DNA of 38,971 bases from an uncultured Microcaldota archaeon (lineage in GTDB: Archaea > Micrarchaeota > Micrarchaeia > Anstonellales > Bilamarchaeaceae), in the NCBI GenBank assembly GCA_903835325.1, contig CAILMU010000240.1, positions 1 through 38,971 of the forward strand. Reading direction: 5' to 3'. The translations under genes were made by a program, and so were the position numbers. Under the pieces are notes generated by a model, which did no database searches, was not told where the DNA came from, and worked only from the letters and a program-made list of their open reading frames with translations. Below, piece by piece: positions 1,820 to 31,650 of this stretch; the first letter of the stretch is position 1, and every line of letters begins with the position of its first letter.

Positions 1820-2146
1820 CTATTTGCTCCCCAAGAGATCCGCGATGGAATCCATGAACGATTTCTTGAGAGGCTTCTTTATCGAGAACGTCCGGACTAT
1901 CGGGTAGTGCCTGACGATCTCGAAATTGAATTCCGATGAATCGGAATTGTAGGCGTTGGTATCGGCGCTGCCATCATCGGGCGCATATGCCTTCGGTTTC
2001 GAGCGCTCGGGCTTCTTCCCTTGTTTCTTGGTGCCTCTGCGCTCGTCCGCTTTCACCGCAAGGCGCGCTTCCGGCGAGTCCGGGTCCTCTTTCTCATCCG
2101 TAGGATCCACCCAGGAATCGTCTTCCATGCTTGAGCTGCCTTTCAT
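1820..2146 (-). CDS. Small charged protein, third gene of the HerA-like ATPase operon
   Basis: I do not recognise this 108-residue protein. Residues 1-65 are Asp/Glu/Lys/Ser/Pro-rich and look disordered. The last ~40 residues (SEFNFEIVRHYPIVRTFSIKK onward) look foldable and end in an amphipathic KKSFMDSIADLLGSK. There is no signal peptide, membrane segment or cysteine. Its ATG overlaps the stop of the upstream gene as ATGA, so it is translationally coupled to the coiled-coil/winged-helix gene and belongs to the ATPase operon. A role as a partner of those two proteins is an inference from this coupling only. Confidence 0.7.
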   Translation of the reverse strand: MKGSSSMEDDSWVDPTDEKEDPDSPEARLAVKADERRGTKKQGKKPERSKPKAYAPDDGSADTNAYNSDSSEFNFEIVRHYPIVRTFSIKKPLKKSFMDSIADLLGSK

Positions 2147-2850
2147 TCGAAACGCCTCCGGATGTAGCCTCCATGAAGAAGCAGGTTCAGGCCGTCCTCG
2201 GCCCTGGTGTGGACGATGTTGTTGGCTTTCGCGAATTCCTTGATGTCAATCGTTCCGCCATGCATCTTTATCCAGTTGAAAAGCGATTCCTTGAGAAGGT
2301 CGTCGCTCATGCCGTTCATTTTCGAGATGCGCTTCTCGAGCTCCTCGCGTTTCTGCTCGCATTCGAGAAGTATCCTCGTGTTCGCCTCGCTCGAGCGGAC
2401 CAGGTCGTTGTATTTGGCGACCAGGTCGGTGTGCCTGGCCTGGAGTTCTGTGAACTGGGTCGACATCTCGGACGCGTCATGGTCTACGACTTTGGAAAGC
2501 TCTGTTATCACTTCATTCACTGAGGAATAGACGCAGCTCGGAGCGATGCTGTAGTATTCCTCTGATACCCGCAGGATGTTCAGGAAGGTCGGAAGCACCT
2601 CGATGAGGCGGCTTACCCGGCTGCGGTTCTCAGGGATGGAGAAGACGAGCTCTATCTCGTCAGGGCGGAACTCTATCTGATATTCCAGATACGGGTTGCC
2701 CCGGAGATCCTGGCCCTTTATCTTCTCTATCGAGAGCGTGTCGCTCATGAACGCTATCTTGCTGAAACCAAGGCCGCTGAAGAGGCCGGCTAATGGCTTC
2801 AGGCTGCCTTTTCGGCTGGCCGCTATCCTTATCCTTTCCTCATCCGGCAT
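2143..2850 (-). CDS. Coiled-coil protein with C-terminal winged-helix-like domain
   Basis: This is a 235-residue protein from ATG 2850. The ORF track starts 18 nt earlier at MCWMIQM. I prefer 2850 because GGATGAT sits about 7 nt upstream of it as a ribosome binding site, inside the end of the ATPase gene. The N-terminal ~100 residues are a mixed alpha/beta domain with FRPDEIELVFSIPENRSRVS. Residues ~110-185 are a heptad-rich coiled coil (TELQARHTDLVAKYNDLV). The last ~50 residues (LLKESLFNWIKMHGGTIDIKE...GGYIRRRFE) look like a winged-helix fold, with a closing beta-wing. There is no membrane segment. The gene overlaps the ATPase gene by 11 nt and the next gene by 4 nt. It may be a DNA-binding or adaptor partner of the ATPase; I do not recognise a named family. 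Confidence 0.8.
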   Translation of the reverse strand: MPDEERIRIAASRKGSLKPLAGLFSGLGFSKIAFMSDTLSIEKIKGQDLRGNPYLEYQIEFRPDEIELVFSIPENRSRVSRLIEVLPTFLNILRVSEEYYSIAPSCVYSSVNEVITELSKVVDHDASEMSTQFTELQARHTDLVAKYNDLVRSSEANTRILLECEQKREELEKRISKMNGMSDDLLKESLFNWIKMHGGTIDIKEFAKANNIVHTRAEDGLNLLLHGGYIRRRFE

Positions 2851-4306
2851 TTGAATCATCCAACACAACGTTGACGACGCCTTTCGTGGCTTTCCTCATC
2901 TTCACCAGCGAGAACACCTTGATGAGGTTCTTCTCATCGATACCGAGCTGGCGGAGGAACGATATTATAGACGGCCTGGAATAGCCGAACTTCTCCAATA
3001 TGGCGACAAGCTTCTCGCCATCGAGCATACCGTCGCCCTTCTCGAACTCCCGTTTAAGCATGCTGAGCTGGCTCTCGTTCAGGCCGAATTCGTATAGCAT
3101 CCTGACAAACTGCTCCCGTTCAATCTCAACGTCCATATCCCCACCATGTATCCTGAACAATAGCAATGGCTCTTCGCCGTCTATCTTATCCATCAAGAAC
3201 GTCATGACTCTGGATTGCCTTGCCGAGAAAATCATGTTCACGGCGGCATCGCCTACACCGAAACGGGATATCTCCGAATCGATGAAGTTCGAATATCCGA
3301 CGGATGCGCGCACATAGTCCCTGAACTCCTTGAGGACAAGGCGCAGGACGAATATCGTCCCGATGTTGCTGAATATCGTCTTATGGATGTCCGTCGGGTT
3401 CTGGGTCGCGACTATCAATGAGAAGTTGTACTTGCGGCCTTCGCGGACAATCGTGATGACATCGCTCCGTTCATCCTGGGCTATCTTCCAGGCTTCGTCC
3501 AGGACCACGAAGAGGCGCACGCGCTTGTCTTCCTCCTTCAGGCTTTCCGAACGCATTATCTCCTTGATATATTGCAGTATCGTGAGCCCTGCTAGGCTCC
3601 TCATCTCCTCTGTCGGGAGGTTGTGGAGGTCTATGCAGACAAGGCCGCTCCTGGTCAAGGTCTTGAGGTCGAAAGTCGAGGTGCCTGCGAAGAAATCCGT
3701 GCCTTCTGATGTGAAGCGCTTCAAGAGGCGCGCGGCTTTCTTGTCGCCCTTGTCTTCGAGGACTTCGACGACATCCAATAATGTCGGCTTGTTGCCCTTG
3801 CCTTCTTTCACCTTGCGGTCATAGACGGCTTCGAGCGCCTCTTCGATATGGTCCCTCTCGTTCGGATAGCTCTTGAGGTCGCAGAGTATGTCGAGCGAGG
3901 ACACTATCTGCTTTATCCTGCTCCGTGAATTCGTGCCGACCAGGTCGAGTATGTTGAGGCGCTCCTCGCCGAGGTTGATGACCTTTCCCCCGGCCTGTTT
4001 CACCCAGCGGTCGTATTCCCCGACCCAGTCAAGGATGATGGCGTTCGTGTTCCAGATGAGGGAGGCCCGGGTGAGGAATGTCTTCACAGTGTAGGATTTG
4101 CCGGCGCCGGTTATACCCAAAATCGCGATATGAGGGTTGATGAGTTTGCTGGGGTCCCAGAAGACCGGCGTCCTGAGGAACCTTGTCTTGCCGATATAGA
4201 CCCCGTCGCTGGGGGCTGAAAGAAGCAGGTCCTTCCTTGGCTCTGGAGGGTGCACTAGAATCATCTTGCGTGCGACTTCCTTGGAGAGCATGTACGATAG
4301 CTTCAT
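2840..4306 (-). CDS. HerA/VirB4-type P-loop ATPase (DUF87 superfamily)
   Basis: This is a 488-residue FtsK/HerA-superfamily ATPase. The motor core has the lead-in VFWDPSKLINPHIAILG, Walker A GITGAGKSY (~64-72), Walker B LFVVLDEAW (~265-273) and a sensor/Q-type motif ATQNP (~300). The VFWDP...NPHIAILG lead-in and VLDEAW are typical of VirB4/CedB-like and HerA-like DNA-pumping ATPases. The VirB4 N-terminal domain is missing, because only ~50 residues precede the lead-in. The C-terminal ~100 residues carry two small helical repeats (FGLNESQLSMLKREFEKGDG, FGYSRPSIISFLRQLGI). It is the first gene of a three-gene overlapping operon with a TATA box and a GGAG ribosome site. It could be the motor for the VirB6- and VirB4N-like membrane proteins at 7.8-9.7 kb, or an independent HerA-like translocase. 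No NurA nuclease gene is adjacent. Confidence 0.9.
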   Translation of the reverse strand: MKLSYMLSKEVARKMILVHPPEPRKDLLLSAPSDGVYIGKTRFLRTPVFWDPSKLINPHIAILGITGAGKSYTVKTFLTRASLIWNTNAIILDWVGEYDRWVKQAGGKVINLGEERLNILDLVGTNSRSRIKQIVSSLDILCDLKSYPNERDHIEEALEAVYDRKVKEGKGNKPTLLDVVEVLEDKGDKKAARLLKRFTSEGTDFFAGTSTFDLKTLTRSGLVCIDLHNLPTEEMRSLAGLTILQYIKEIMRSESLKEEDKRVRLFVVLDEAWKIAQDERSDVITIVREGRKYNFSLIVATQNPTDIHKTIFSNIGTIFVLRLVLKEFRDYVRASVGYSNFIDSEISRFGVGDAAVNMIFSARQSRVMTFLMDKIDGEEPLLLFRIHGGDMDVEIEREQFVRMLYEFGLNESQLSMLKREFEKGDGMLDGEKLVAILEKFGYSRPSIISFLRQLGIDEKNLIKVFSLVKMRKATKGVVNVVLDDSNAG

Positions 4307-4350
4307 GGGTAACTCCGCTTCATTTGTATATTATTAGCTACTCTTTGCAG

Positions 4351-4455: not shown

Positions 4456-5823
4456 TCACTCGTTTGCCGGTTGCATATTCAGGAGCTCCTCCAGGCGCGC
4501 CATCACCATATCATAGAACCCGTACGGGAAGGAACGGCACGCGTTCTGCTCCGGGCTTGTCGCATCCTTGGCAGGGCAGCGGTTGTTCACCAGGTTGTGC
4601 GGGTCGGCTATACCACGAAGGCGGTTGGGGGAGTTTGCCCATATCTCAGATGCGCTCGTATCCATGGCATTGCCATGTATGCTGTCCGGCCCATCGGCTC
4701 GTCCCGGGCACATATCCACACGTCCGTTGGCGCGGATAAGGCCGAAGCCGTTCGATGCCTGATTGCACGGGGCAGCGCCGACGTAGGATGCGATTCCTTC
4801 CGAGCGTATCTGCTCTATCGTCTGGATGCCCTTCCTGATGTTGAACAGGTATATCTGGGCATAGAGCTCGATGAGGCGCTCCTGGAACTGGTTCATGACA
4901 GATCTCTGGCGCCCGAGCTGCACAAGGCCCAGGCCGCTCACCATGGTAGGAGTCATTATCACAGGTGTCCCGCGCTCGATGAAGAAGCGGTAGATATCCA
5001 GCGATTCATCGATGTTCTCAGGTACTATCGGGGTATTCGCTGCGCATATCCGGTTTGTCATTCCATCCTTGTAGAAATCCGAAGCGAACAGGTTCTCAAG
5101 AGCTTTCACACGGATTTCATGATAGCCTCTGAGGCCGCGCGACTTCCCATCCACAACCCGCGAGACCAATGCCTGCTGGGTTTCCGGATCGAACGATTGG
5201 AATGAGAACAAGAGGGTGACGTTTCCGCATGCCGCGAGGCGGTCAACGAACTCCTTTGCCGAATTGATCCCCATGTGTCCTTGGTATTTTCTCGCAAGCG
5301 CATCGTTTCCCAGAAGCGCGCCCTTTGTGAAGATGCCGATTGTTATTCCGCGTTTCGCGTACTCCTCGATGATATCGAAAAGCTCCGGGTTCATCAGAAG
5401 CTCGCCCGGGCCGAGGAATTTCACGCTCTCGAAGCGATGATTTTCGCTGGCCGCGATCGCTGCCAGTTGGTCTATCACCCCGAACGTCTCTCTCATCGTC
5501 ATAATCGGGTTCGGGCTCCCATCTGCATTTCGTTTGGCGTATACCGCATCCTGCTCGCTGAAGCACGAGGGGCATCGGTGGACGCAGAGGTCCGGGTGGT
5601 AGCTGGAAAGGAGGGAGTAATCGCTATCCGGGTCGTTGTGCTTGGCGACCAACTCATCTGGGACATGCTCCACATCGGCGGTGTAGCATCCGGGCGTCTC
5701 TGCCCTGACAGGCCAGCCTCTGGTGCTGTTCCTGAATCCCTCTGGGAGCGGCGCATGGCCCGGGAAACGGGCGGGGAATCTTTTCGCAAAAGCTTCCTTG
5801 TGTGCTAACTTGTGGTTTTGCAT
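4456..5823 (-). CDS. Radical SAM enzyme, uncharacterised
   Basis: This 455-residue protein has the radical SAM cluster motif CVHRCPSC (CX3CX2C, Cys80/84/87), expected to bind the [4Fe-4S] cluster that cleaves S-adenosylmethionine. A TIM-barrel-like core follows (VKFLGPGELLMNPELF, ITIGIFTKGALL, VTLLFSFQSFDPET). The last third carries extra cysteines (GAAPCNQAS, RVDMCPGRADG, NNRCPAKD, NACRSFPYG), which suggests an auxiliary Fe-S cluster of SPASM/Twitch type. The substrate is unknown. It is divergent from the tandem Lrp regulator, with a TATA box 18-27 nt before its ATG, so regulation by that neighbour is plausible but unproven. The last residues (MQPANE) end in ordinary sequence. Confidence 0.9.
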   Translation of the reverse strand: MQNHKLAHKEAFAKRFPARFPGHAPLPEGFRNSTRGWPVRAETPGCYTADVEHVPDELVAKHNDPDSDYSLLSSYHPDLCVHRCPSCFSEQDAVYAKRNADGSPNPIMTMRETFGVIDQLAAIAASENHRFESVKFLGPGELLMNPELFDIIEEYAKRGITIGIFTKGALLGNDALARKYQGHMGINSAKEFVDRLAACGNVTLLFSFQSFDPETQQALVSRVVDGKSRGLRGYHEIRVKALENLFASDFYKDGMTNRICAANTPIVPENIDESLDIYRFFIERGTPVIMTPTMVSGLGLVQLGRQRSVMNQFQERLIELYAQIYLFNIRKGIQTIEQIRSEGIASYVGAAPCNQASNGFGLIRANGRVDMCPGRADGPDSIHGNAMDTSASEIWANSPNRLRGIADPHNLVNNRCPAKDATSPEQNACRSFPYGFYDMVMARLEELLNMQPANE

Positions 5824-5839
5824 GATATGATATGGCTGT

Positions 5840-5895
5840 TTTTATATAATAAAGATTTTATCAAAAAATGAGCGAAAATGATAGGGATTTAAACT
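5840..5895. promoter_or_regulatory. Divergent promoter region of the radical SAM and Lrp genes
   Basis: The 94-nt AT-rich gap 5824-5917 holds TATATAAA on the minus strand (about 5841-5848) for the radical SAM gene and TTTAAACT on the plus strand (5888-5895) for the Lrp gene. Each lies roughly 18-30 nt from its start codon, so both transcripts are likely leaderless. An Lrp-type protein often binds its own promoter, and this gap would be the natural operator. Confidence 0.45.
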
Positions 5896-5917
5896 ATTTC
5901 AATAAAAATGCAAAATT

Positions 5918-6901
5918 ATGGTCGATATAAATAACATCAAGCTCGACAAGGCAGACAGGCTTATTCTGGCTGAGCTGGATAAGAACTGCCGTGTGCCTAC
6001 ATCGAGACTTGCCAAACTCGCCCGGAAATCGCGCCAGAGCATCGAGTATAGGATAAGACGGCTCGTAGAACAGGGCATCATCACAAGCTTCAACGCCTCG
6101 ATAAACCCGCACAGGATGGGCTACAAAATCTACAAGATATATCTCCAGTTGCGCAACCTCCCTAAGGAGAAAGCGGCCCTTTACGCGTATCTCCGAACAT
6201 CCGGCATCGTCTACTGGATGGGAGAGGCTGACGGTGCGTGGGACCTGATTTTCGGCGTCTTCGCGAAATCCGATTACGAATTCTACGCGCTCAAGAACGA
6301 GATGGTATCGCAGTTCGGCCCGATAATCGTGAAGAACTATTACGATGTTCTAGTCGATGTGAAGCAGTACCCGAAGATGTACTTCACCAACGAAATCTCG
6401 AAACCGACCATGTTCGCAGGCGAGATAGTGGTGAACGAGCTCGATGCGCTCGACCATGCGATTCTGGGCGAGATGGTGAACAATGCGAGGATCCCCATAA
6501 CCGAACTAGCGGCGAAAACCAAGTCGAATCCCGCGACGGTCGCGAACAGATTGAAGAGGCTGGAGAAATTAGGTATCATCATCCAATACCGCATCGGGGT
6601 GGACCTCAATAAGCTCGGGCTCGAGTACTACAAGGCTATTCTCCATCTCGACCGGTATACGAAAGAAGACGAGAAGAGGCTCCTGGAATACATGTCCGGC
6701 CTTCCATGCACGCAGTATTTCATCCGCAATATATGGGATATCGAACCTGAGCTGGTCGTTTCGGATTATCATGAATACCGCGAGATAATCGAACGCGTGA
6801 AGGACGAATTCCCGCTTGTCATCAAGAACGTGGAGACCGCTCTGATGAAGAGCGATGAATGGACGCCGGGGTTCAGGAACCTCCTCAAAGCGAAGGTCTA
6901 G
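5918..6901 (+). CDS. Tandem Lrp/AsnC-family transcription regulator
   Basis: This 327-residue protein is made of two complete Lrp/AsnC units. The first HTH (LDKADRLILAELDKNCRVPTS through YRIRRLVEQGIITSF, ~8-58) is followed by a RAM-like ligand domain (~70-150). A second HTH (LDALDHAILGEMVNNARIPIT through NRLKRLEKLGIIIQYRI, ~172-222) is followed by a second RAM-like domain (~230-320). Ordinary Lrp proteins are ~150 residues with one unit that dimerises, so this one is a fused dimer. It is divergent from the radical SAM gene across a 94-nt gap and may control it and itself. The effector is not known; Lrp relatives usually sense amino acids. Confidence 0.9.
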   Translation: MVDINNIKLDKADRLILAELDKNCRVPTSRLAKLARKSRQSIEYRIRRLVEQGIITSFNASINPHRMGYKIYKIYLQLRNLPKEKAALYAYLRTSGIVYWMGEADGAWDLIFGVFAKSDYEFYALKNEMVSQFGPIIVKNYYDVLVDVKQYPKMYFTNEISKPTMFAGEIVVNELDALDHAILGEMVNNARIPITELAAKTKSNPATVANRLKRLEKLGIIIQYRIGVDLNKLGLEYYKAILHLDRYTKEDEKRLLEYMSGLPCTQYFIRNIWDIEPELVVSDYHEYREIIERVKDEFPLVIKNVETALMKSDEWTPGFRNLLKAKV

Positions 6902-6925
6902 CCGCGCTTGTAAAAGCCAGGATAG

Positions 6926-7753
6926 TCATCTTCGTTCTGCGAAGCCCAATGCAGAAATCAGCTGGTTCCGGTAATGCTTGCCTTCATCGATAGTGCGATC
7001 GTATAAGCCGAGGCTCTGCGCCATGCGCTCAAGAGAATTCGGGTTCTTTGGCCTCAAAAGTATCCCGCAGGCGCTCCCCAGCATTTCAAGGACATCCAGG
7101 ACATCGTTCGATAGGACAGCGGAGGTCTGTGGATCGAACGGCAAGCCCGCCGAAGCGAGCAGTTTCGATACGGCAGTCATCTTGGTCATGACAATCGTAT
7201 CGCCATCCATGGAATCCTTTGCGCCGATTATGGTCTCGAATCCTGCGAAATCATGCCCCCTGACCCGCTCGATGCTTCCGATGGCGTGCCTGAAGCCCAG
7301 GCTCCTTGCGACATATTGGGCGCTCATATCCGAGCCTCGCGTTGCGAGGACAGGCGTGATGGCGAAATCCCTCCCGGCCCGAAGAAGAGCCTCCGCAAGG
7401 CCCTTTCGGAAGCCTCCGGAATATTCCAGCTTCTTCATTATATCTGTCCAGTCGGCCTGCCTGAATCCCGCGGCATAGATATCGGCGAATATCGCCATAT
7501 GCAACTGGTCAAGGCCCATCTCCCTGCGTTTGACCTTGCGCGAGTAATCTGCGAGGCGCTCCTTGGCTTCCTCCTTGCCGTATACCCGCTCGAGAGCGAC
7601 CTGCGCCGAATCCTCGGTGGTGAGCGTGCGGTCGATATCGACTATTATCGTCTCTATCCTGGGCATATGTTTCGCCTTGGCCATCGTCCGCCGCATCGCG
7701 AAACGAGCGCTGGATGATGCTACGAGTAAGAATGGATTCTGGTTGATGCCCAT
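6926..7753 (-). CDS. HAD-superfamily hydrolase
   Basis: The HAD motif I nucleophile is visible in IIVDIDRTLTTED (DxDxT), followed by a helical cap region, a motif II-like TPVLATRG and a late DVLEMLGSACGILL with the usual motif IV layout. This supports a phosphatase or phosphotransferase; the substrate is unknown. Length is 275 residues from ATG 7753, which has TTTTAATC about 25-32 nt upstream (leaderless). The first 29 residues precede the usual HAD start, so ATG 7666 (MPRIETIIVDIDRT) is an alternative start. It is downstream of the VirB4N-like membrane gene on the same strand (76-nt gap) and convergent with the Lrp gene. Confidence 0.8.
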   Translation of the reverse strand: MGINQNPFLLVASSSARFAMRRTMAKAKHMPRIETIIVDIDRTLTTEDSAQVALERVYGKEEAKERLADYSRKVKRREMGLDQLHMAIFADIYAAGFRQADWTDIMKKLEYSGGFRKGLAEALLRAGRDFAITPVLATRGSDMSAQYVARSLGFRHAIGSIERVRGHDFAGFETIIGAKDSMDGDTIVMTKMTAVSKLLASAGLPFDPQTSAVLSNDVLDVLEMLGSACGILLRPKNPNSLERMAQSLGLYDRTIDEGKHYRNQLISALGFAERR

Positions 7754-7829: not shown

Positions 7830-8654
7830 TCAGAACAGCGTGTCCTTTATCTCCTCAGATGTCGTCGGCGCGAAGAAGTCCCAGTCGAAGCAGTGTATCA
7901 TCTCAAGGTCGGTCAGTTCCCTGATGTCGCATCCTAAGGAACTCGAAAGTATCGTCTTCAGCTCCTTGGCCTGCCTCGAGACCCTGCTCGTCGCCTCATC
8001 CCGCGTCAAACCGAATGCCGTCGTTGATGCGAAAGCGATTATCTCGACCGGCCTCTCGCCCTGCGTTATCCTTTCCAGAAGCCTGTTCCAGTAGGCGAGC
8101 TCGCGGTCCATGCGCATAGCTTCGTCAGGGGCGATTCGCGCCTCCTTGGATTTCTTCGTCTCGACGATGCTGCGCTTGGTTTTGATGTCATCGATATGGC
8201 CGGAGAGGTCGAGGGTGCTTATCATGAAGCTTATCTTCACGATGTATTTGAGGGAGCTCACAGCCTTCTCGAAGGATTCGAACATCAGGCGCTTCTCCTC
8301 CTGGTCTTTATCCATGGAGCTCTCGTAGAAATTTATCTCCAGGAATTTGGTCGCGTAATACCCCTCGTTAGTCTTGCGGATGATATAATCGCGCGATGGC
8401 GGGATTTCGTAGCCTGCATGCATCTCGACGATGTTGGTCGCTTTTGTTATGGCCGGCATTATCAGGTAGCCGTATTTCCAGAAAGCAAGGCTCACCGTGA
8501 AGCAGACGGCCCCGATCACAGGCCAGAGCGGGTTCCCGTAGAAGAGCGATAGGATTATGCAAAGCACGCCGCCGACCAGGGCGGCAACGGTGATAACGCG
8601 ATTCAGCAGCATATTGATCACATTCGATGCTTGCCAGATAAACCATGCAAGCAT
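7830..8654 (-). CDS. Membrane protein resembling PrgI fused to a VirB4 N-terminal domain
   Basis: This 274-residue protein has two membrane helices near the N-terminus (~19-38 and ~43-66), as in small PrgI/VirB3-type proteins. A ~190-residue soluble domain follows. Its layout is a beta strand after YYATKFLEINF, then an amphipathic helix, then a strand of VKISFMISTLDLSG, then a long charged helix pair (DEAMRMDRELAYWNRLLERIT), then VEIIAFASTTAFGLTRDEA and a helix ending LSSSLGCDIRELTD. This matches, by eye, the N-terminal (CagE/TrbE) domain of VirB4, with no P-loop. It starts 13 nt after the VirB6-like gene, the same order (VirB6, PrgI, VirB4) as Gram-positive conjugation operons. The missing ATPase half may be the protein at 2840-4306. 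The VirB4 relation is inference; the membrane topology is clear. Confidence 0.75.
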   Translation of the reverse strand: MLAWFIWQASNVINMLLNRVITVAALVGGVLCIILSLFYGNPLWPVIGAVCFTVSLAFWKYGYLIMPAITKATNIVEMHAGYEIPPSRDYIIRKTNEGYYATKFLEINFYESSMDKDQEEKRLMFESFEKAVSSLKYIVKISFMISTLDLSGHIDDIKTKRSIVETKKSKEARIAPDEAMRMDRELAYWNRLLERITQGERPVEIIAFASTTAFGLTRDEATSRVSRQAKELKTILSSSLGCDIRELTDLEMIHCFDWDFFAPTTSEEIKDTLF

Positions 8655-8667
8655 TATAAAACATCAG

Positions 8668-9693
8668 TCAAATCTGCGCCATTGTCCTAAGGCCTATCTC
8701 GCTTCCTAAGAGCGAGCTCAGCTCTTTCACGAAGACGGCTGTGACCAGGAGCGAGAATATTGGCGCAACCACCGAATAGAGGAGCGATTGGGAGATCGCA
8801 TCGGAATCTGCTTTCGATATGTAAGTGAGGTCGCCGCTGAGGTCTGTAGTCGTATTGTTACCAATTCCGGCAGTGAGGTTGAAGCATCTGGAGCCGTTGG
8901 AGATATTGGCTATGTTGTTGGAGCACCTTCCGCTCATGACATCCAATTTCCCTGCCAATGCATAATTGTCATTGAGGTCCACGACAGGGACCGGGGAATA
9001 GTACGTGTTGTTGTCGAATGCCTGCATGGCCGCCGTCGCGTTGTTTATCCCCGGGGTCGGGTCGGGGAATATCAGGACGAAAGTCGGGTAGAAGAGATAG
9101 AGGCCTATAGCCAGGCCGATCAGGAAACCTCCGACCTTGCGAGTCGCGAACAATGTACGCAGGATGAGGCCTGTCGGGAAAAGAATCCCCAGGACGCTCG
9201 CGCTGATGAACGCAGTCGTCTGCACGTTCAGCGAGACGAGTATCATGGTGAGGTTGAGCAATAAGAGCTGGACGGAAAGCGCCCCGGATATCGAAGAGAG
9301 GCTCGCCATCGGAAGTATGGTGAATGCGCCGAAATTCAATGAGAGCCCCTGGTAGTAGGTGAGCGTCCCCAGGAGGCGCATGAGCTCCTCGAGCATCGAT
9401 AGGAGCGCAGTATTGACATTGGTGAGCGAGCAAAGGAGCTGGGCAGCGACGCTCGTCGCGCTGCATCCTTCGGTCACCAAGGACGAGCTGACTGAAGCGA
9501 CCAGGGCCACAATCGCGGCAAACGAGCCGATGATGGCGGCATTGACGATGGATTGGATGAGCTCCTCTATGCCGAACTGCTCTATCCGCTTGTAACCGAA
9601 AGCGCGGCCTAAACCTATCAGGATCCCTGCAAGGACGATAGATGCCGTGACCACGATCACAGCGATGCCCATGCCGGCGAAATCTTCTGCCAT
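8668..9693 (-). CDS. Polytopic membrane protein, VirB6/CedA-like candidate
   Basis: This 341-residue protein has about seven hydrophobic segments: IAVIVVTASIVLAGILIG (~10-28), a segment near 47-70, two or more between 125 and 175 (LLLLNLTMILVSLNV, ASVLGILFPTGLIL), FLIGLAIGLYLFYPTFVL (~190-210) and a C-terminal YSVVAPIFSLLVTAVFV (~305-325). A ~90-residue loop between the last two is rich in Asn and Thr with a Cys pair (GRCSNN, SRCFN) and N-x-S/T sites, as expected outside an archaeal cell. The pattern of many helices, one large outer loop and a short tail is that of VirB6/TrbL/CedA channel proteins. It is followed after 13 nt by the PrgI-VirB4N-like gene. Family membership needs a profile search. 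Confidence 0.75.
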   Translation of the reverse strand: MAEDFAGMGIAVIVVTASIVLAGILIGLGRAFGYKRIEQFGIEELIQSIVNAAIIGSFAAIVALVASVSSSLVTEGCSATSVAAQLLCSLTNVNTALLSMLEELMRLLGTLTYYQGLSLNFGAFTILPMASLSSISGALSVQLLLLNLTMILVSLNVQTTAFISASVLGILFPTGLILRTLFATRKVGGFLIGLAIGLYLFYPTFVLIFPDPTPGINNATAAMQAFDNNTYYSPVPVVDLNDNYALAGKLDVMSGRCSNNIANISNGSRCFNLTAGIGNNTTTDLSGDLTYISKADSDAISQSLLYSVVAPIFSLLVTAVFVKELSSLLGSEIGLRTMAQI

Positions 9694-14887: not shown

Positions 14888-16135
14888 ATGGAACCTTTTC
14901 TCGAATGCCTGGGCGCCTCGCGCGAAGTCGGGCGGAGCGCGTTCATGCTCCACACCGACCGGAACATCTACCTTGATTACGGTATCAAGCTCTTCGATGA
15001 GAGCGGGAAGCCGAAATTCCCGATTCCGACGACCACGAAACCGGATATGATGATCCTCTCGCACGCGCACCTGGACCACAGCGGCTGCCTGCCGTCGCTG
15101 TACCATCACAACAAGATACGATGGTACTCGACCCCGCCGACCATGGAGATCTGCCAGATGCTGTGGATGGATTCCATGAAGATAAACGGCTCCGAGCTCC
15201 CCTTTCGCCTGGCCCAGTTCGCAAAAGCCCTGAAATTCTGGTCCCCGCTCCTCTATGAGCAGACGATACAGACGGGAAGGACGAGCATGGTCCTGCATGA
15301 TGCCGGCCATATCAGCGGCGCGTCCATGATAGAGATAGAGCATGAAGAGAAGACGATCCTGTACACCGGGGATTTCAAGTGCGAGGAGACGTTCATGCAC
15401 AAGGGGGCGAAGCTTGCCAAAGACGTGGATGTGCTCATAACCGAGTGCACCTATGCGAAGAAGGAGCATCCGCCGCGCAAAGCCGCGGAGAGGAAGTTCA
15501 TGGATGAGATACATGAGACCATAGAAAACGGCGGGAATGTCTTGCTGCCGTCCTTCGCGCTCGGGCGCACGCAGGAGCTCATAGCCATGATCAGGCATTA
15601 CGACAAGAATGTGCCGGTCTTCGTAGATGGGATGGGCAGGGAGATAAGCAAGATATACCTCAGATACCCCAAATACATCAAGGACCCGAACGCGTTTCGG
15701 AAGAATGTCCATGAGGTCACGAGCGTGGCTGACCAGACCGACCGGAGGCTGGCGACCAGGAAGCCGTCTGTGATAATCACGAGCGCCGGCATGATGAACG
15801 GCGGGCCCGTGCTCAACTACCTGTTCAACTGCAATAGCGAATCGAAAGTCTTGTTCACAGGATATTGCGTGGACGGCACGAACGGGTGGAAATTGCAGAA
15901 CCACGGGTTCATAACGAAAGACGAGCAGGACCTGTATGTCGACCTTCCGATAGAATATATAGATTTCTCGGCTCATGCCGGGCGCTCGGACCTCCTGAAA
16001 TTCATCAAGGCGGCGAACCCGCAGAAGGTCGTGCTGGTGCATGGGGACAAGCCGATGGATTTCGCTGCGGAATTGAAGGAGGAGCACGGGCTCGATGCCG
16101 TCGCGCCGCTTCCAGGAGAGAGGATAATGCTCTGA
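14888..16135 (+). CDS. Beta-CASP metallo-beta-lactamase ribonuclease (aCPSF2-like)
   Basis: This 415-residue protein carries the zinc motif SHAHLDHSG (His59, His61, Asp63, His64), later DAGHISGASM, YTGDFK and ECTYAKK, and the beta-CASP motifs LLPSFALGRTQELI (A), ITSAGMMNGGP, DFSAHAGRSDLL (B) and VVLVHGDKPMDF (C). It should cleave or trim RNA, as archaeal CPSF-type nucleases do. It lacks the N-terminal KH domains of aCPSF1, so it is the shorter aCPSF2 type. I place the start at ATG 14888, since GAGGTG sits 7 nt upstream and the protein then begins at the first conserved strand (FLECLGASREVG). The long minus-strand ORF 14858-16087 is its shadow. Confidence 0.93.
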   Translation: MEPFLECLGASREVGRSAFMLHTDRNIYLDYGIKLFDESGKPKFPIPTTTKPDMMILSHAHLDHSGCLPSLYHHNKIRWYSTPPTMEICQMLWMDSMKINGSELPFRLAQFAKALKFWSPLLYEQTIQTGRTSMVLHDAGHISGASMIEIEHEEKTILYTGDFKCEETFMHKGAKLAKDVDVLITECTYAKKEHPPRKAAERKFMDEIHETIENGGNVLLPSFALGRTQELIAMIRHYDKNVPVFVDGMGREISKIYLRYPKYIKDPNAFRKNVHEVTSVADQTDRRLATRKPSVIITSAGMMNGGPVLNYLFNCNSESKVLFTGYCVDGTNGWKLQNHGFITKDEQDLYVDLPIEYIDFSAHAGRSDLLKFIKAANPQKVVLVHGDKPMDFAAELKEEHGLDAVAPLPGERIML

Positions 16136-16139
16136 TTAA

Positions 16140-16265
16140 CAAGGAGATTATTTTTTTCCTTTTCTCGTTCTTCTTTTTTTGATGATTTTCTTTTTCGATT
16201 CTGCTTTTGTTTTCATTTTTGTTTTCGTTTTGGCTTCCGATTTTTTTATTTCTGCTTTCCCTTCG
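16140..16265 (+). terminator. Oligo-T tract downstream of the beta-CASP gene, inside the cca tail
   Basis: Right after the beta-CASP stop the plus strand is very T-rich (TTATTTTTTTCC, CTTTTTTTGATG, GTTTTCATTTTTG). Archaeal RNA polymerase stops at such oligo-T runs. The same bases, read on the minus strand, encode the Lys-rich C-terminal tail of the convergent cca gene. Confidence 0.5.
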
Positions 16266-17557
16266 TTCCTTTTTCCCATGTATCTCTCAACGACAACGAG
16301 CTCTTCGCTGCAGGCAAGATGCGATTTCGTCCTGCCGAACTGCCTGAAGAATCCCATTATCGCATCATGCGCGCCGGTTATCGGCCGCTTGACCCTCGCC
16401 ATCATCCTTTTTTTCTGCTTGAAGAACCTCGCGCCCTTGTGCTTTTTCTGGAAATCGATAACGTTCTTCTTCATGTCCAGCGGCGGGCCTTCTATCGCCA
16501 TGTCTTTGGGAAGCGTGTCTTTTGAAAGCGAGAGCGCGATACGGACGATGTGGCGCGAGTCGTCGGCAGCTATCGCTTTCGGCGAGAAATCTTCCATGTG
16601 CGCTTCCAGCTGGCTGTTCAACCGATAGAGCTGGCCCCAGAGCACATCATCGACTACGTCGGAACGTGGCATCGTGATGATGAACACCGCTGACCCTTTC
16701 GCGGATGCCAGGCGCTTCGCCTTGTCATCGAACGTCTCCGGCTTCCTCGTGAAAAAGACGGCTGATGGCTTCTTCAGGAACGATTTGCAAAGCGCGATGA
16801 AAACCCTGAGATTCTCCCGGGATAATGCTGCGGCGACATTCCTGTTTCTATCTGTCGGATCGATGACCGCGAAACCGCCGAGACGTTCGTGCGCATCCGA
16901 GATCGCCTGCTTGCCTTTGTGGAACCCGTTGATGTCTATGAATATCGGCTTTTTCTCATCCCATCTGGAAGCCTGCTTCACCAATTGCGGGAAGCTTCCG
17001 TATCCGATGATGAGGAGTTCGCAGAGGTATCCTGAGAAGCCCTTTATCTTTATCTCTGCGCCATAAAGCGAATTCGCTTTCAGGAACGCTTTGAGCAATA
17101 GGACATCCCCTATGCGGCTCTTCGGAAGATGCGAATTCACGAATATCGTGTGCAAAGCGGAGCGGTCCACTGCGCTGAGGCGCTCGGATGATTCCGATAT
17201 CTTGTATGCGGGCACCAGGTCTATCCGCCTCCCGCGGTAATGGAAACGGACATACGGGTGCTCGGCGTAGCTTATCTGGTAGCCGGTCCCTGGAAGGGAG
17301 GACTCCATCACGTTCTTTATGAGCATCTCGAGCATCTCGCGCGGGTAGGAACGGTCGAAGAGCACGAAGATGTCTATGTCGCGCCCTTCTTTGAGGAACG
17401 TGCGTTTGGCCACGGAGCCCGTGAGTATCACCTCGCATCCGGATGGGGCGGACGACTGGAACTTGCCTATCAGTTCGTTTGCGATATCAAGCTCGCGCTG
17501 AGTCTCCTCATCTGACGGCCTGATGGAAGAAAGGACCTGGGAGAGGATCTTCTGCAT
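16148..17557 (-). CDS. cca: CCA-adding enzyme (archaeal class I tRNA nucleotidyltransferase)
   Basis: The enzyme adds CCA to tRNA 3' ends without a template. The class I nucleotidyltransferase motif is LTGSVAKRTFLKEGRDIDIFVLF, with the GS and DxD residues, and RRIDLVPAYKI supplies the third carboxylate. The following SGYLCELLIIGYGSF and FIDINGFHKGKQAISD are typical of archaeal Cca. Length is 469 residues from ATG 17557, near the family's usual 440-460; the ORF track starts at TTG 17563. I prefer ATG because a TATATAAC box lies 25-32 nt upstream. The last ~35 residues are a Lys/Arg-rich tail (KTKTKMKTKAESKKK) absent from the core fold and probably RNA-binding or disordered. Convergent with the beta-CASP gene, 12 nt apart. 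Confidence 0.93.
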   Translation of the reverse strand: MQKILSQVLSSIRPSDEETQRELDIANELIGKFQSSAPSGCEVILTGSVAKRTFLKEGRDIDIFVLFDRSYPREMLEMLIKNVMESSLPGTGYQISYAEHPYVRFHYRGRRIDLVPAYKISESSERLSAVDRSALHTIFVNSHLPKSRIGDVLLLKAFLKANSLYGAEIKIKGFSGYLCELLIIGYGSFPQLVKQASRWDEKKPIFIDINGFHKGKQAISDAHERLGGFAVIDPTDRNRNVAAALSRENLRVFIALCKSFLKKPSAVFFTRKPETFDDKAKRLASAKGSAVFIITMPRSDVVDDVLWGQLYRLNSQLEAHMEDFSPKAIAADDSRHIVRIALSLSKDTLPKDMAIEGPPLDMKKNVIDFQKKHKGARFFKQKKRMMARVKRPITGAHDAIMGFFRQFGRTKSHLACSEELVVVERYMGKRNEGKAEIKKSEAKTKTKMKTKAESKKKIIKKRRTRKGKK

Positions 17558-17618
17558 AGCCAACCCGTTCGAAGCTAAATGTTATATACACTTCACGCGC
17601 CCTACGCGCGCCGCTTGC

Positions 17619-17715
17619 GCGGACGGGTTGCAGGACCATGCCTGCGAAATCGGATATCTACAAGCGCTCATGCGGATAGATATCGGCGCGAATCGGCGCC
17701 CGCTCGTCCGCTCCA
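17619..17715 (+). ncRNA. Possible structured RNA with a cloverleaf-like fold
   Basis: Within the 232-nt gap between cca and the lipoprotein gene, GCGGACGGG (17619-17627) can pair with CTCGTCCGC (17703-17711). Inside are three hairpins: GCAGG/CCTGC (17630-17645), GATATCTA/TAGATATC (about 17653-17684) and GGCGC/GCGCC (17685-17700). The closing stem is followed by T-CCA, as in a tRNA end. It is not a normal tRNA: the D- and T-loop consensus bases are missing, the middle arm is too long and the total is 97 nt. A TATATA box at 17582-17589 could serve it on the plus strand but also serves cca. The folds are also possible on the other strand. Real or not is undecided. Confidence 0.35.
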
Positions 17716-17761
17716 TACTAATAATATGAAGCGCAATCCGAGAATCGCGCTGGGGGTGAGA

Positions 17762-17769
17762 TTTTAAAG
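17762..17769 (+). promoter_or_regulatory. TATA box of the membrane lipoprotein gene
   Basis: TTTTAAAG lies 21-28 nt upstream of ATG 17790, which fits a leaderless transcript starting at that ATG and argues against the upstream GTG start (17775) of the ORF track. Confidence 0.5.
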
Positions 17770-17789
17770 TTCTTGTGTGTTATCCCCCC

Positions 17790-20078
17790 ATGCGCCGTGC
17801 ACTGATACTGGCCGTGGCACTCGTCATATTCCTGGGCGCCTTCGGCTGCATAGAGCAGAAGGATTACCCGAGCGTCAAGAACGAACAGCTCGCCGCCACC
17901 AACAGCGTGGATCTGGACAATGACGGCGTAGCGGATCTTTCAGTGTATGATTTCGCGCCGGTTGCTGTCTCAGGCACTGACCTGGTCGTGCAACGCCAGC
18001 TCAGCGTTGCGATACGCTCGAGCGCGACATTCAGCAAGACGAACCCCAACCTGACAGACCTCGACCTCCTCACGGCTGATTCGAACCTCGAGGAGTTCGG
18101 CAAATCCAAGGACCAGGCGGTTGGTTCCTGCAGCCAGGCGATAGGCCTTTTCAACGTCGTATGTTCCGACACCGAGACATGCAGCAGGCTCTGCTCGAGC
18201 AACTCGGTAAGGTGCAAGAAAATCGCCGCATCCTACCAGGATGTGCTGGCAGGCTCCATGATAGGATACATCCAGAACACGAACGAGATAAGCTCGCTCA
18301 TCCTCGATATGCGCAGGATGGTCACAAGCCTGCGGACCGGGACGGCCGAGGACCGCGACAACTACCTGGACAAATCTCGTGCGCTCATCGAGGAGATAGC
18401 GCAGGTGGAGACCAACCCGCTCTACACGAGCAAGGACATGAGCCTCTGCGCCCCGCAGGATTTCGGCGTGTCATACCTGATGGATGCGGTATCCGGGATA
18501 GGGACGTATTCCAGCGAGCCGACGGGCTATCACTATACGATGACAGTTTCCGTGAAACCGGCTTCCGGTAACAACGCCAAGATGAGCTCGGAGATAGGGT
18601 CGCTCGCGATAACAGACAAGATACCGAAATCCGTCGTATCCAACAAGGAAGCGATATCATCGGTCCAGACCCTCGCCACTTCGGATAACGGCAACAGCAT
18701 AGCCATGTCGTGGGCGGAAGCGAAACCATCGGATCAGGGAAGGATATTCATCTACGAGTTCGATTCGTCTTCATCCCCTGATATCCTCATGCCTTCGCTA
18801 ACGAGCCCTGCTGTCAGCGTGAAAAGCATCAACCTCATCTGGCTGCAGCCGACCAACATGCTCTTCAGCGCGGTCTACGGCTTGAGCAGGAATTATTTCT
18901 TCGCCCTCGGATTGGCCATAGGCGCCACCATCGCAGCCATTCTCCTCGTATATAACGTGGCGATACTGCTCTTCACCCTCATCAGCGAGAAGACGGCCGG
19001 GGCAGGCCTCAGCACGGCGTTCAGGAGGGCATTCGGAAGGACCGAGATTCGCTGGAAGAGCGACCTGGCCCTGTCTGTGATTGTGCTCATAGCCGGATAC
19101 TATCTTTCCGGATTCGTCGCGACTCAGCCGGATACCGGCTCGACGATAGTGGATTCATTGGATATACTTTTGAAGAACGGCGTCGGCATGGTCTCTGCTT
19201 GGCTCGTCCTTGCAGGGGCGATCCTCATCTATTTCGCGCTCGAGAACATCGTGAAGATAACGCTCCTGGAGATGTCGTACGGCAAGATACTCAAGGCTGA
19301 GAAGGAGACATTCGTGCAGAGGGCCGACGGGGTCAAGGAGCGCATCAAAGCCTTATCAGACCTCATAGACGCCTATCGCGAGGAGGACTTCGACATCAGC
19401 AGGGAATATGATGTGCTCACGACAGTGAACCCGCAGAAGATAGATGATATCGTGAAAAGCATGACCCCGAGGTCAAAGGCCATGCTGGATGACTACTCGA
19501 TACACATCGACGGCGCCATCAGCACGCTCAAGGAGCGCAAGAAGCTCGCGGACGACAGCTGGCCTAGATGGAAGGACAGCATAACGAAATCGCTGGAGGA
19601 GCATGACGAGGTTTATGCCTCGAACCTTGTGACCATCCCAGCGTCCCTGCGACTCTGGGCCCTCAGCAAGTATGTCGCTGAGAAGAAGAGCGAGGGGCTC
19701 GTCTTCGAGCACGACGCGCTGCGGAAGAAACGCATCGACCCCGCATCCGTAGTCAGAGACATGATAGAAAAAAAGCTCATCCGGGGCGCCATCGTCATCC
19801 AGGACGAGAAGATAACGATATCCGAGTTCGCGGACGGCAATGCGACATTGCGAAGCGCGCTTGCCATGAAGCTCAGGACTTATCTCTATTCATTGACCAA
19901 GAATATAGCGCAGCGCGAACCGGCGAGGTTCCTCTCTGTAGGGAATAAATCCGTGCTCCTGTTCTTCAAGGGAAGGGCGAGCGAGACAATGCTTTTCCTT
20001 GATAAGGATAGGGTCAAGGAAGCGATAGAGGGCTGGAACAGCAAGATGGCTCCTGGAGAAACGGGCGCGAGTGGCTAA
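17790..20078 (+). CDS. Large membrane-anchored lipoprotein-like protein, function unknown
   Basis: This is a 762-residue protein from ATG 17790. It starts MRRALILAVALVIFLGAFGC, a signal peptide with a lipobox-like AFGC (Cys20). The outer region (~21-365) contains NSVDLDNDGVADLSVYD (a calcium-binding-like acidic repeat) and a Cys-rich stretch with six Cys (CSQAIGLFNVVC, CSRLCSSNSVRC). Three membrane helices follow (~367-397, ~424-443, ~463-488). The last ~270 residues are cytoplasmic and helical, with coiled-coil-like parts (KEETFVQRADGVKERIKALSD). A final mixed domain (DPASVVRDMIEKKLIRGAIVIQDEKITISEF) may be a winged helix. I do not recognise the family. The topology suggests a receptor or an envelope-spanning scaffold. 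Confidence 0.85.
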   Translation: MRRALILAVALVIFLGAFGCIEQKDYPSVKNEQLAATNSVDLDNDGVADLSVYDFAPVAVSGTDLVVQRQLSVAIRSSATFSKTNPNLTDLDLLTADSNLEEFGKSKDQAVGSCSQAIGLFNVVCSDTETCSRLCSSNSVRCKKIAASYQDVLAGSMIGYIQNTNEISSLILDMRRMVTSLRTGTAEDRDNYLDKSRALIEEIAQVETNPLYTSKDMSLCAPQDFGVSYLMDAVSGIGTYSSEPTGYHYTMTVSVKPASGNNAKMSSEIGSLAITDKIPKSVVSNKEAISSVQTLATSDNGNSIAMSWAEAKPSDQGRIFIYEFDSSSSPDILMPSLTSPAVSVKSINLIWLQPTNMLFSAVYGLSRNYFFALGLAIGATIAAILLVYNVAILLFTLISEKTAGAGLSTAFRRAFGRTEIRWKSDLALSVIVLIAGYYLSGFVATQPDTGSTIVDSLDILLKNGVGMVSAWLVLAGAILIYFALENIVKITLLEMSYGKILKAEKETFVQRADGVKERIKALSDLIDAYREEDFDISREYDVLTTVNPQKIDDIVKSMTPRSKAMLDDYSIHIDGAISTLKERKKLADDSWPRWKDSITKSLEEHDEVYASNLVTIPASLRLWALSKYVAEKKSEGLVFEHDALRKKRIDPASVVRDMIEKKLIRGAIVIQDEKITISEFADGNATLRSALAMKLRTYLYSLTKNIAQREPARFLSVGNKSVLLFFKGRASETMLFLDKDRVKEAIEGWNSKMAPGETGASG

Positions 20079-20079
20079 A

Positions 20080-20116
20080 ATTTTTTCTGAACTTTCTTTA
20101 GTTTTTATTATTACAC
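20080..20116 (+). terminator. T-rich terminator after the lipoprotein gene
   Basis: AATTTTTTCTG and TAGTTTTTATTATTA follow the stop codon at 20078 directly. Two oligo-T runs in an AT-rich stretch are what archaeal termination uses. Confidence 0.5.
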
Positions 20117-20174
20117 AGAATGGAATTGTGGCACAAAACCTTAAATTGTATTAAATCATCAAATATATTATATT

Positions 20175-21560
20175 TTAGGATTTTTTATTCAATAAATATC
20201 TAGACGAACGATACTGCCCAATTTTATTCAACCTTCCTTGGGCAGTTAATTCATTGAGATCTCGGATAGCGGTAGGATGTGAGATCCCTACGATTCTTGC
20301 GAAAACTGGTGCAGTTATGAACTCGTGTTTTTCTAGATATGCAAGGGCTTTTTGCTGACGCTCCGTTATTATTCCGAATGCCCTCACGGCTCGAGAAGAT
20401 AAAGAACCATATAGAGTTACCCTGAAAAATCCCCCAAGATCGTCGAAAACTGGGTCGGGAAGGTCATTTTGACGCATTATTCTTATCATGTCTTTAACTC
20501 CAAGATTAAGGCCTTCTCCCCAACCAGCATCGTTCAAAACCCGATGGATGAGCGGGTTCCTGTGCCGGCGAATATCTGCGAAATTCTTTAATGTTTGCCC
20601 TGGAAGTAAGGTTCCTGGATTTGAAATTTGTATGCGATCGACAAATATTTCTACTAAAACTCCATTAGGATCGAAGTAGTCCCTGTGTCCAACTGCATTT
20701 GTCAATGCCTCTCTAAGAACTCGATCAGGTATCATAGGGGCTTCAATCCTTTTGCCATTTACGATCCGAGCCGAGATGCCTGCTTTATCCTTAACGAGAC
20801 TGAAACAGGTCTCAAGAACTTCCAGCAAAGTATCATTCAGTCTCATATCAAATTCCCTTGCTTTCATGCTTGGGAAAAATCCCTTATATTTAACAAGACG
20901 AATCTCTGAGTTCAAGAAGAAGCGTGCAATGTTTTTAGCGAAAGCAAGTACGCCAGCGTTTTTAATATAGAATGGCCCCATGCTGTTCGCTACACCTATA
21001 CTCGTTAAAATTGTGGCGAAATCAATACCTTCAAATTTCTCTGCTTCAGTTCCACGAAGCAATAATAGCTTATGAACTTTTCTCTCATCAAGATCCTCTA
21101 TTTTTGCATTGGATGGGTTTTCTTCGAAAGATATTACCCCCCTCGCTTTGAGGAACTCGATAAGTTCGCGCTTACTTAGTTCGACGTTCACTGAGCCTTG
21201 CCTAATAAAAGCGAATTTTTTTAGAAAACATAATTCAGAGACAGGAAGCGGGCCGATTTCAACCAAAATGATAAGATGTGAATCAACATCATGCTCTTCC
21301 ATGTTGCATTTGGGTCGGGGATCAAGCATGGGCAAAATATTGGCGATTTTTTGATATGCTTCATCGCGATTTGGAACTCCAACAACATGAATATTATCTT
21401 CTTGTTCTTCAACTCCTAAGATCAATATTCCCCCGCCAGAATTGGCGAAAGCGCAGAAGGTTTGGCCAATCCTGTCTGTGAATTGAGCCGACTTTTTAAA
21501 CTCCAGTTTGGAACCTTCAGGTTGCTGGAGCAAAAGTGCTACCTGGTCTTTCGAAAACAT
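20175..21560 (-). CDS. AlbA_2/Schlafen-type ATP-binding protein with C-terminal HTH
   Basis: The N-terminus (EGSKLEFKKSAQF...FANSGGGILILGVEE) is the AlbA_2 (AAA_4, Schlafen-like) domain, residues ~1-130. The middle holds the conserved ALTNAVGHRDYFDPNGVLVEIFVDRIQISNPG, as in proteins annotated as RecG-like or ATP-binding transcription regulators. The last ~70 residues (RQQKALAYLEKHEFITAPVFARIVGISHPTAIRDLNELTAQG) form a winged HTH. Such proteins are often found in mobile or defence settings; their role is unsettled. The gene is clearly richer in A/T and uses AT-ending codons unlike both neighbours, and it sits alone between AT-rich flanks, so transfer is likely. A leaderless promoter is suggested by ATTAAATATC 21-30 nt upstream. 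Confidence 0.88.
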   Translation of the reverse strand: MFSKDQVALLLQQPEGSKLEFKKSAQFTDRIGQTFCAFANSGGGILILGVEEQEDNIHVVGVPNRDEAYQKIANILPMLDPRPKCNMEEHDVDSHLIILVEIGPLPVSELCFLKKFAFIRQGSVNVELSKRELIEFLKARGVISFEENPSNAKIEDLDERKVHKLLLLRGTEAEKFEGIDFATILTSIGVANSMGPFYIKNAGVLAFAKNIARFFLNSEIRLVKYKGFFPSMKAREFDMRLNDTLLEVLETCFSLVKDKAGISARIVNGKRIEAPMIPDRVLREALTNAVGHRDYFDPNGVLVEIFVDRIQISNPGTLLPGQTLKNFADIRRHRNPLIHRVLNDAGWGEGLNLGVKDMIRIMRQNDLPDPVFDDLGGFFRVTLYGSLSSRAVRAFGIITERQQKALAYLEKHEFITAPVFARIVGISHPTAIRDLNELTAQGRLNKIGQYRSSRYLLNKKS

Positions 21561-21917
21561 ATAAATATATTAAACAGAGAGATATTTAATACTATTTAAT
21601 ATAAAATTCAAACGAGGATACCCAATTATCTTCGAAGAAACTACGGGAGTGTAACCTTTACATGTAACTCCTGAACCACATGCAATGTTATTTTCACACA
21701 ATCTTAAGAATTATGACGCGTAAAGGATTTTTGAACAAAACCATGGCGCTAATAAATCATTTTTGTACAAACCTCCCGGTTTATATGCAACCAAAAATCT
21801 GCGTATTCCGCCAGCTGAAACCGGCACGAATTTAAAGCCTTCCAGCCATTACTTTTCTACCAAGAAATTCTGAATTCTACCGACGTGGTTTTGGCATAAT
21901 GAATCAGTGGTTTTCAT
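21561..21917. other. 357-nt gene-free gap between the AlbA_2 gene and gyrB
   Basis: No coding sequence is seen. The left 60 nt hold the AlbA_2 promoter with short ATTTAATA repeats. On the plus strand GGTTTATATGC (about 21778-21788) and GAATTTAAAGCC (about 21828-21839) are TATA-like and could drive gyrB with leaders of about 50-110 nt. No strong ribosome binding site precedes the gyrB ATG. A regulatory role for a long gyrB leader is possible, since gyrase genes are often controlled by supercoiling, but nothing here proves it. Confidence 0.5.
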
Positions 21918-29660: not shown

Positions 29661-29708
29661 TGATATATGGCCCGGAATCAAGGGCGATCATAACAGGAGG
29701 ATGAGGAT

Positions 29709-30602: not shown

Positions 30603-30610
30603 CGGCCTGT

Positions 30611-31108: not shown

Positions 31109-31125
31109 ATGGCGCACTGGCGGAC

Positions 31126-31587: not shown

Positions 31588-31650
31588 GTGGTTGTTCTTG
31601 CTGACTATGAATAAAAAGGATGGGGACGGAATAGGTATGAAGTGATATTC

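Follow-up and report, generated by a model that had tools for sequence, protein, structure and literature searches.

A predicted T4SS-like locus of Micrarchaeota in which VirB4 appears to be divided between two chains

The Ced (CedA/CedB/CedA1/CedD) and Ted (TedA/B/C) systems of Thermoproteota transfer DNA and consist of chromosomally encoded VirB2, VirB4 and VirB6 (PMC9905601); in CedB, and likewise in CedD, part of the VirB4 N-terminal domain (NTD) shares a chain with a motor, and VirB3 has been stated to be absent in archaea (PMC11868833). TrsD, abundant in Patescibacteria, is a separate protein remotely homologous to the N-terminal portion of VirB4 (PMC12102498). The inner-membrane complex of R388 (TrwM/VirB3, TrwK/VirB4, TrwI/VirB6) is built with a one-chain VirB4 and a single VirB6 present as a homopentamer (PMC9259494), and the rvh T4SS of Rickettsia has five strongly diverged virB6 paralogues that lie in tandem and keep their order (PMC2653234). 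Micrarchaeota are tiny archaea, many of which are thought to live on other cells, and how DPANN archaea connect to partner cells and exchange material with them is an open question; attachment structures have been seen by microscopy in one DPANN co-culture, their proteins being reported as unknown (PMC11420986).

The locus described here lies in a window of 38,971 nucleotides (the whole stretch of DNA that was analysed), which is part of a 1.59-Mb draft genome of an uncultured micrarchaeon. We read it, with a probability of roughly 0.8, as coding for the inner-membrane engine of a T4SS-like machine, chromosomally encoded and domesticated, whose VirB4 consists of two chains and in which P274 would be the anchor, the motor is free and P341 would provide a channel or platform; no functional data support this reading. 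No report of such a system in Micrarchaeota was found in the open-access literature (subscription papers and preprints were outside the scope of the search) and, provisionally, it appears to be undescribed. The features concerned are the following:

8668 to 9693, minus strand: P341, 341 aa, putative VirB6-like polytopic membrane protein with six hydrophobic segments and a long sequon-rich loop
7830 to 8654, minus strand: P274, 274 aa, predicted membrane hairpin with, C-terminal to it, a TrsD-like domain of the VirB4 N-terminal type; translation probably begins at 8609
4456 to 7753: genes between P274 and the motor, namely radical SAM (4456-5823, minus), Lrp-like (5918-6901, plus) and HAD (6926-7753, minus)
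2840 to 4306, minus strand: motor, 488 aa, stand-alone VirB4/CedB-type ATPase without N-domain; Walker A at residue 63, DEAW Walker B
2143 to 2868, minus strand: W241, conserved protein with a coiled coil; its frame overlaps the end of that of the motor
1820 to 2146, minus strand: W108, small protein; overlaps W241; a weaker member of the system

P341 and P274 are encoded with 13 nt between the P341 stop (8668) and the first ATG of P274 (8654). This spacing, noted earlier, holds for the annotated frames; homologues begin at Met16 of the window protein, so translation of P274 probably starts at 8609, which would widen the gap to ~58 nt. Since P274 and the motor adjoin in most relatives, the three genes that separate them here are not considered part of the system. 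A homologue of W241, for which profile searches gave no family match above noise, lies 3' of the motor in both the window-type operons and the paralogous ones described below, and a W108 homologue follows W241 in L033/L060 and L063 only.

Both P274 and P341 are, by sequence comparison, real genes, the former because homologues (E<=0.01, single-sequence search) occur in 256 of the 295 genomes of the phylum, mostly in two or three copies each. P274 has no Pfam, NCBIfam, PHROG or PDB sequence match above noise. Its AlphaFold2 model (13 sequences; pLDDT 67, pTM 0.55) comprises a long helical hairpin and then a mixed alpha/beta domain and, among the 1000 best-ranked PDB chains, was matched best (VIA-align) by VirB4/TrwK of R388 (Z 10.3 over 141 aa; model 80-260 against TrwK 221-373), with a background of unrelated ferredoxin-like proteins next in rank (Z 7-8.7); Foldseek placed VirB4 chains at ranks 3, 4 and 6. 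A 100-sequence P274 profile aligned with a TrsD-like family, taken from the nearest plasmid VirB4 operons, at an HHalign probability of 95.2% (E 2.5e-8, 160 columns), against at most 0.3% for 20 column-shuffled controls, 0.9% for the reversed profile and at most 0.6% for unrelated window proteins compared as single sequences. The TrsD-like proteins aligned in turn with residues 45-244 of canonical one-chain VirB4 (94.4%, E 8.7e-8), and it is through these two steps that P274 is tied to the VirB4 N-terminal region. Profiles and a structure model of only moderate quality thus agree in identifying the predicted soluble domain as of the VirB4 N-terminal type. As to which half of the VirB4 NTD is represented, the profiles lean towards the first half for single-copy P274 (90%, against 8% for the second); the structural alignment points to TrwK 221-373, nearer the motor.

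The P274 gene had been described in the earlier note as a PrgI-VirB4 N-domain fusion. The N-domain part of this proposal was supported by the profile alignments and the structural match, and a two-helix hairpin is present; homology of the hairpin to PrgI or VirB3 was not shown, HHalign giving no signal against PrgI (1.7% only). The architecture is that of a protein encoded on an Embleya plasmid (L129:4584-5633), in which a PrgI family protein is fused to a TrsD-like domain.

The motor was matched best in NCBIfam by CedB (4.7e-29), over positions 250-576 of 590, i.e., the motor half only, and next by VirB4 CD1110 (2e-28). Against the CedB equivalog NF041017 it scored 101 bits, not at full length and short of the curated cut-off of 700. 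Its CedB and CD1110 matches and its invariant Walker A and DEAW Walker B motifs identify it as a VirB4/CedB-type P-loop motor. The earlier note had placed a HerA/VirB4-type motor without N-domain 3.5 kb away from P274; the gap is 3526 bp, and the N-domain is indeed lacking, as Walker A is reached already at residue 63. This short form is common to all relatives read, Walker A falling at ~63-69 in the archaeal motors vs 232-288 in the motors of bacterial split systems. With its short N-terminus, the motor therefore misses just the part that P274 supplies.

All 58 loci that hold both genes have the motor 3' of a P274-type gene and on its strand, less than 300 bp away in 50 of them (both figures count fetched loci, some of which overlap, rather than genomes); the distance varies between ~60 bp and 4.2 kb in close relatives. 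A profile search found the motor in 248/295 Micrarchaeota genomes. Families that lack P274 lack the motor as well, and of 20 listed genomes without P274, 17 are also without the motor. We take the identity of the N-domain and motor genes, their split and their universal pairing to be established, and the machine to be, as far as such searches can tell, near-universal in Micrarchaeota (~85% of genomes). Two apparent natural fusions of P274 and motor, in G252 (L061, an 819-aa frame) and G232 (L062), were rejected, the join running across an N gap in one case and the other being a different reading frame. No P274 relatives were found in viral contigs or plasmids and no relaxase of PF03432, the sole relaxase family searched, was found in any of 59 genomes, which argues against an ordinary conjugative element.

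The closest bacterial counterpart is the TrsD/TrsE split of Gram-positive MPF-FATA systems and Patescibacteria, where a separate VirB4 N-domain protein is likewise encoded just before the motor. The nearest plasmid VirB4 operons mostly encode PrgI, then a protein of 250-340 aa, then a VirB4/DUF87 motor, which is the TrsC-TrsD-TrsE order, and operons of PrgI, TrsD-like protein and VirB4 motor are found in most of L123, L126 and L131-L140. The Micrarchaeota locus differs from these in its archaeal host, in a motor that keeps no N-terminal region and in the fusion of the hairpin to the N-domain, of which Embleya offers the only example among the bacterial loci read. On a plasmid of Halorientalis marina (L130:4920-5705), a separate TrsD-like protein (HHalign 95.6%) is likewise encoded ahead of a DUF87 ATPase and a multi-TM protein, apparently a split VirB4 in another archaeal group. 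With Ced and Ted the locus shares a chromosomal, relaxase-free set of VirB2, VirB6 and VirB4 and a divided VirB4 N-domain; unlike CedB and CedD, in which N-domain and motor form one chain, Micrarchaeota have them on two, with a hairpin in the place of VirB3 (VirB3 homology not shown) fused to the N-domain.

The assignment of P341 is less secure. The protein was said earlier to have seven helices and a large outer loop; its AlphaFold2 model (pLDDT 61) does have seven longer helices, but only six segments are strongly hydrophobic (at ~10, 48, 135, 160, 190 and 304), so that the number seven holds for helices and less clearly for membrane spans. Of the eight N-x-S/T sequons, seven fall in the large loop (~209-300), as would fit a predicted outer location. 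P341 is syntenic with P274 (44-62% identity in the close relatives aligned) and conserved directly before it, so that a polytopic membrane gene adjoins the N-domain and motor genes in a VirB6-like placement. R388 VirB6/TrwI is among the six best entries matched by the model (Z 9.8 over 160 aa, 9.2 over 237 aa or nearly the full length, and 8.8); the first-ranked match is an unrelated helical protein (Z 12.1), and helical bundles score high by chance. R388 thus provides the best structural match of P274 and one of the best of P341, although it differs in its homopentameric VirB6 and one-chain VirB4. At the sequence level nothing places P341 in the VirB6 family: it has no Pfam, PHROG or PDB sequence match, none of 34 members of the VirB6-like family matches Pfam TrbL, and HHalign gave no signal against bacterial or haloarchaeal VirB6 (CD1112, Bacillota, haloarchaeal; <=0.3% for the bacterial ones). 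The VirB6-like label of the earlier note accordingly retains gene order, topology and modelled fold resemblance in its favor, the last of these suggestive only.

Another operon with P274-type genes, paralogous to that of the window, occurs in genomes of the phylum. In 11 of the 13 such loci for which the full upstream sequence is available, all from two GTDB families (f12, f13), it begins with exactly six VirB6-like genes, themselves of the P341 family, after which come a tandem pair of P274-type genes, the motor, a two-TM protein of small size, a W241-like coiled-coil protein and a protein of ~800 aa with two hydrophobic segments; G017 and G076 are without an array at that place. The run of six VirB6-like genes, P274-type pair and motor is seen at L141, L142, L144-L148, L150, L151, L159 and L160. 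At each array position the genes of 11 genomes group as a separate clade (SH-like support 0.999-1.0), with only ~18-20% identity from one position to another; the six genes are not recent copies. A genome of another family, G054, also has six VirB6-like genes. Tandem, diverged and ordered VirB6 paralogues are known from Rickettsia rvh, which differs in having five instead of the six of the Micrarchaeota sister operon (and the one of the window copy), whereas the Micrarchaeota system is archaeal with a split VirB4. Of the tandem P274-type genes, first copies lean to the first VirB4 NTD half (92%, against 1% for the second) and second copies only partly to the second (68%, against 49% for the first). 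Contig C61 of the window's own genome (L053-L055) carries two tandem six-VirB6-like modules, at 15146-22940 and 32586-40424, whose genes match position by position (53-67% identity between counterparts, otherwise <=23%) and which are flanked by proteins of 1.2-1.9 kaa with no recognised domain.

Small proteins encoded beside related operons match the Pfam families TrbC/VirB2 (8/12) and T4SS_pilin (7/12). Although there is no pilin gene inside the window itself, its genome has five VirB2-like pilin genes, and VirB2-like pilins are encoded in 40 of the 40 relatives searched; the T4SS reading is therefore anchored independently of P274. Four of the five lie in tandem on contig C183 (L167, ~2534-4326) and the fifth on C7 (L168). 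Frames of ~520-680 aa with two VirB2-like segments in relatives (G146:C16, G150:C3, G124:C24, G161:C22, G185:C12) could be pilin fusions. In L155, pilin, VirB6-like, P274 and motor genes are contiguous, a complete small set, and its P274 falls in the window-type clade (support 0.94).

The P274 hairpin, taking the role of VirB3/PrgI in the membrane, would anchor the machine, and its ferredoxin-like VirB4 N-domain would form a docking layer on which the free motor may assemble, ATP hydrolysis then driving transport or pilus assembly. P341 would act as a VirB6-like channel, or as a platform for the assembly of VirB2-like pilins encoded elsewhere in the genome. The machine's most likely use would lie in contact between cells and the transfer of macromolecules, whether the other cell is a partner, a host or kin. 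Hexameric or ring assembly, direction, cargo and the part of P341 as VirB6 are all inferred, and the modest confidence of both structure models (pLDDT 67 and 61) counts against the reading as a whole. More speculatively, and we would sooner doubt this than assert it, the phylum may share a domesticated T4SS with VirB4 as anchored N-domain and free motor in which the VirB6 ring of the sister system is hetero-oligomeric, its six subunits each dedicated and not interchangeable, alongside two dedicated N-domain subunits, one per NTD half, and the window a simpler sister with one VirB6 and one N-domain, so that homo- and hetero-oligomeric versions would coexist; gene counts do not prove ring composition.

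The earlier note had proposed a split archaeal T4SS or Ced-like DNA transfer system, to be abandoned if structure prediction revealed no VirB4 N-domain or VirB6 fold, or if relatives had these genes with no co-occurring ATPase of this type. None of these turned up, though for the VirB6 fold the evidence is suggestive only, and the split T4SS-like system is supported. DNA transfer is another matter: CedB is the closest named motor, but a DNA cargo has not been shown. That the same machine moves chromosomal DNA between cells for recombinational repair, as a Ced/Ted-like importer or exchanger, is a serious candidate that we nevertheless hold at somewhat under even odds. The motor match, the precedent of chromosomal, relaxase-free VirB2, VirB4 and VirB6 sets (PMC9905601) together with the absence of PF03432 from the 59 genomes here, and the partial VirB4 NTDs of CedB and CedD (PMC11868833), which P274 seems to parallel, all speak for it; the motor nonetheless remains far below the CedB cut-off and without the N-terminal half of CedB, and the operon is without repair genes. 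We give equal weight to host-directed secretion or attachment, in which a T4SS-like machine would serve the dependence of Micrarchaeota on partner cells as in epibiotic Patescibacteria, whose chromosomal, relaxase-poor T4SS with separate TrsD is reportedly required for epibiotic growth (PMC12102498). Nanohaloarchaea, which are also DPANN, tie VirB4-type ATPases to giant surface proteins with proposed secretion into the host (PMC10266531), although there the neighbouring ATPase keeps its PF03135 N-domain in-chain and the motor is fused to a giant adhesin. The 1.2-1.9 kaa proteins flanking the six-VirB6 modules of the window's genome and the near-universal occurrence in the phylum fit this possibility; yet no substrate has been identified, the lifestyle of most carriers is unknown, and the giant proteins offer no recognised domain. 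For the cargo we estimate ~40% for DNA and ~40% for proteins or small molecules exchanged with a host in either direction, leaving ~20% for a pilus only.

Two further explanations would dispense with a working secretion machine. The motor might be a HerA-type DNA-repair translocase, with P274 and P341 forming an unrelated membrane complex that lies nearby by chance: its Pfam matches to DUF87/HerA (1.7e-18) and AAA_10 (8.1e-17) are about equal and its PDB profile matches are mostly to HerA. We consider this improbable and rejected HerA as the identity of the motor, as the NCBIfam HerA model scores far below those of CedB and VirB4 (5e-14), the pairing with P274 is without exception in loci with both genes, and P274 resembles the very N-domain that the motor misses. 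Less credible still is an origin of the genes by decay from a conjugative plasmid or integrative element, of which T4SS components are typical: their chromosomal position is syntenic in the genus, the frames are intact in nearly all listed genomes, the distribution is phylum-wide, and neither a PF03432 relaxase in 59 genomes nor relatives on viral contigs or plasmids were found.

A T4SS-like machine in ~85% of Micrarchaeota offers a concrete, testable candidate for exchange with partner cells. The split VirB4 is a natural dissection of the job of each half, and a membrane hairpin is now placed in the position of VirB3 in archaea, which had been described as without VirB3. The six position-specific VirB6-like genes of the sister operon may make VirB6 ring stoichiometry directly testable, along with the transition from a homo- to a hetero-oligomeric channel.

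Elsewhere in the window, a 767-aa protein (17775-20078, plus strand) has a lipobox-like start and membrane segments; several relatives (L033, L034, L036-L038 and L063) keep it on the strand opposite to P341 and no more than ~10 kb away. G+C content falls to 0.405 at 20001-22000, against ~0.54 around it, in a stretch that covers a 461-aa gene (20175-21560, minus strand) and is possibly acquired DNA. Three adjoining charged proteins of 363, 297 and 688 aa, the last very rich in Lys, Glu and Ala, are encoded at 28569-33708 on the plus strand.
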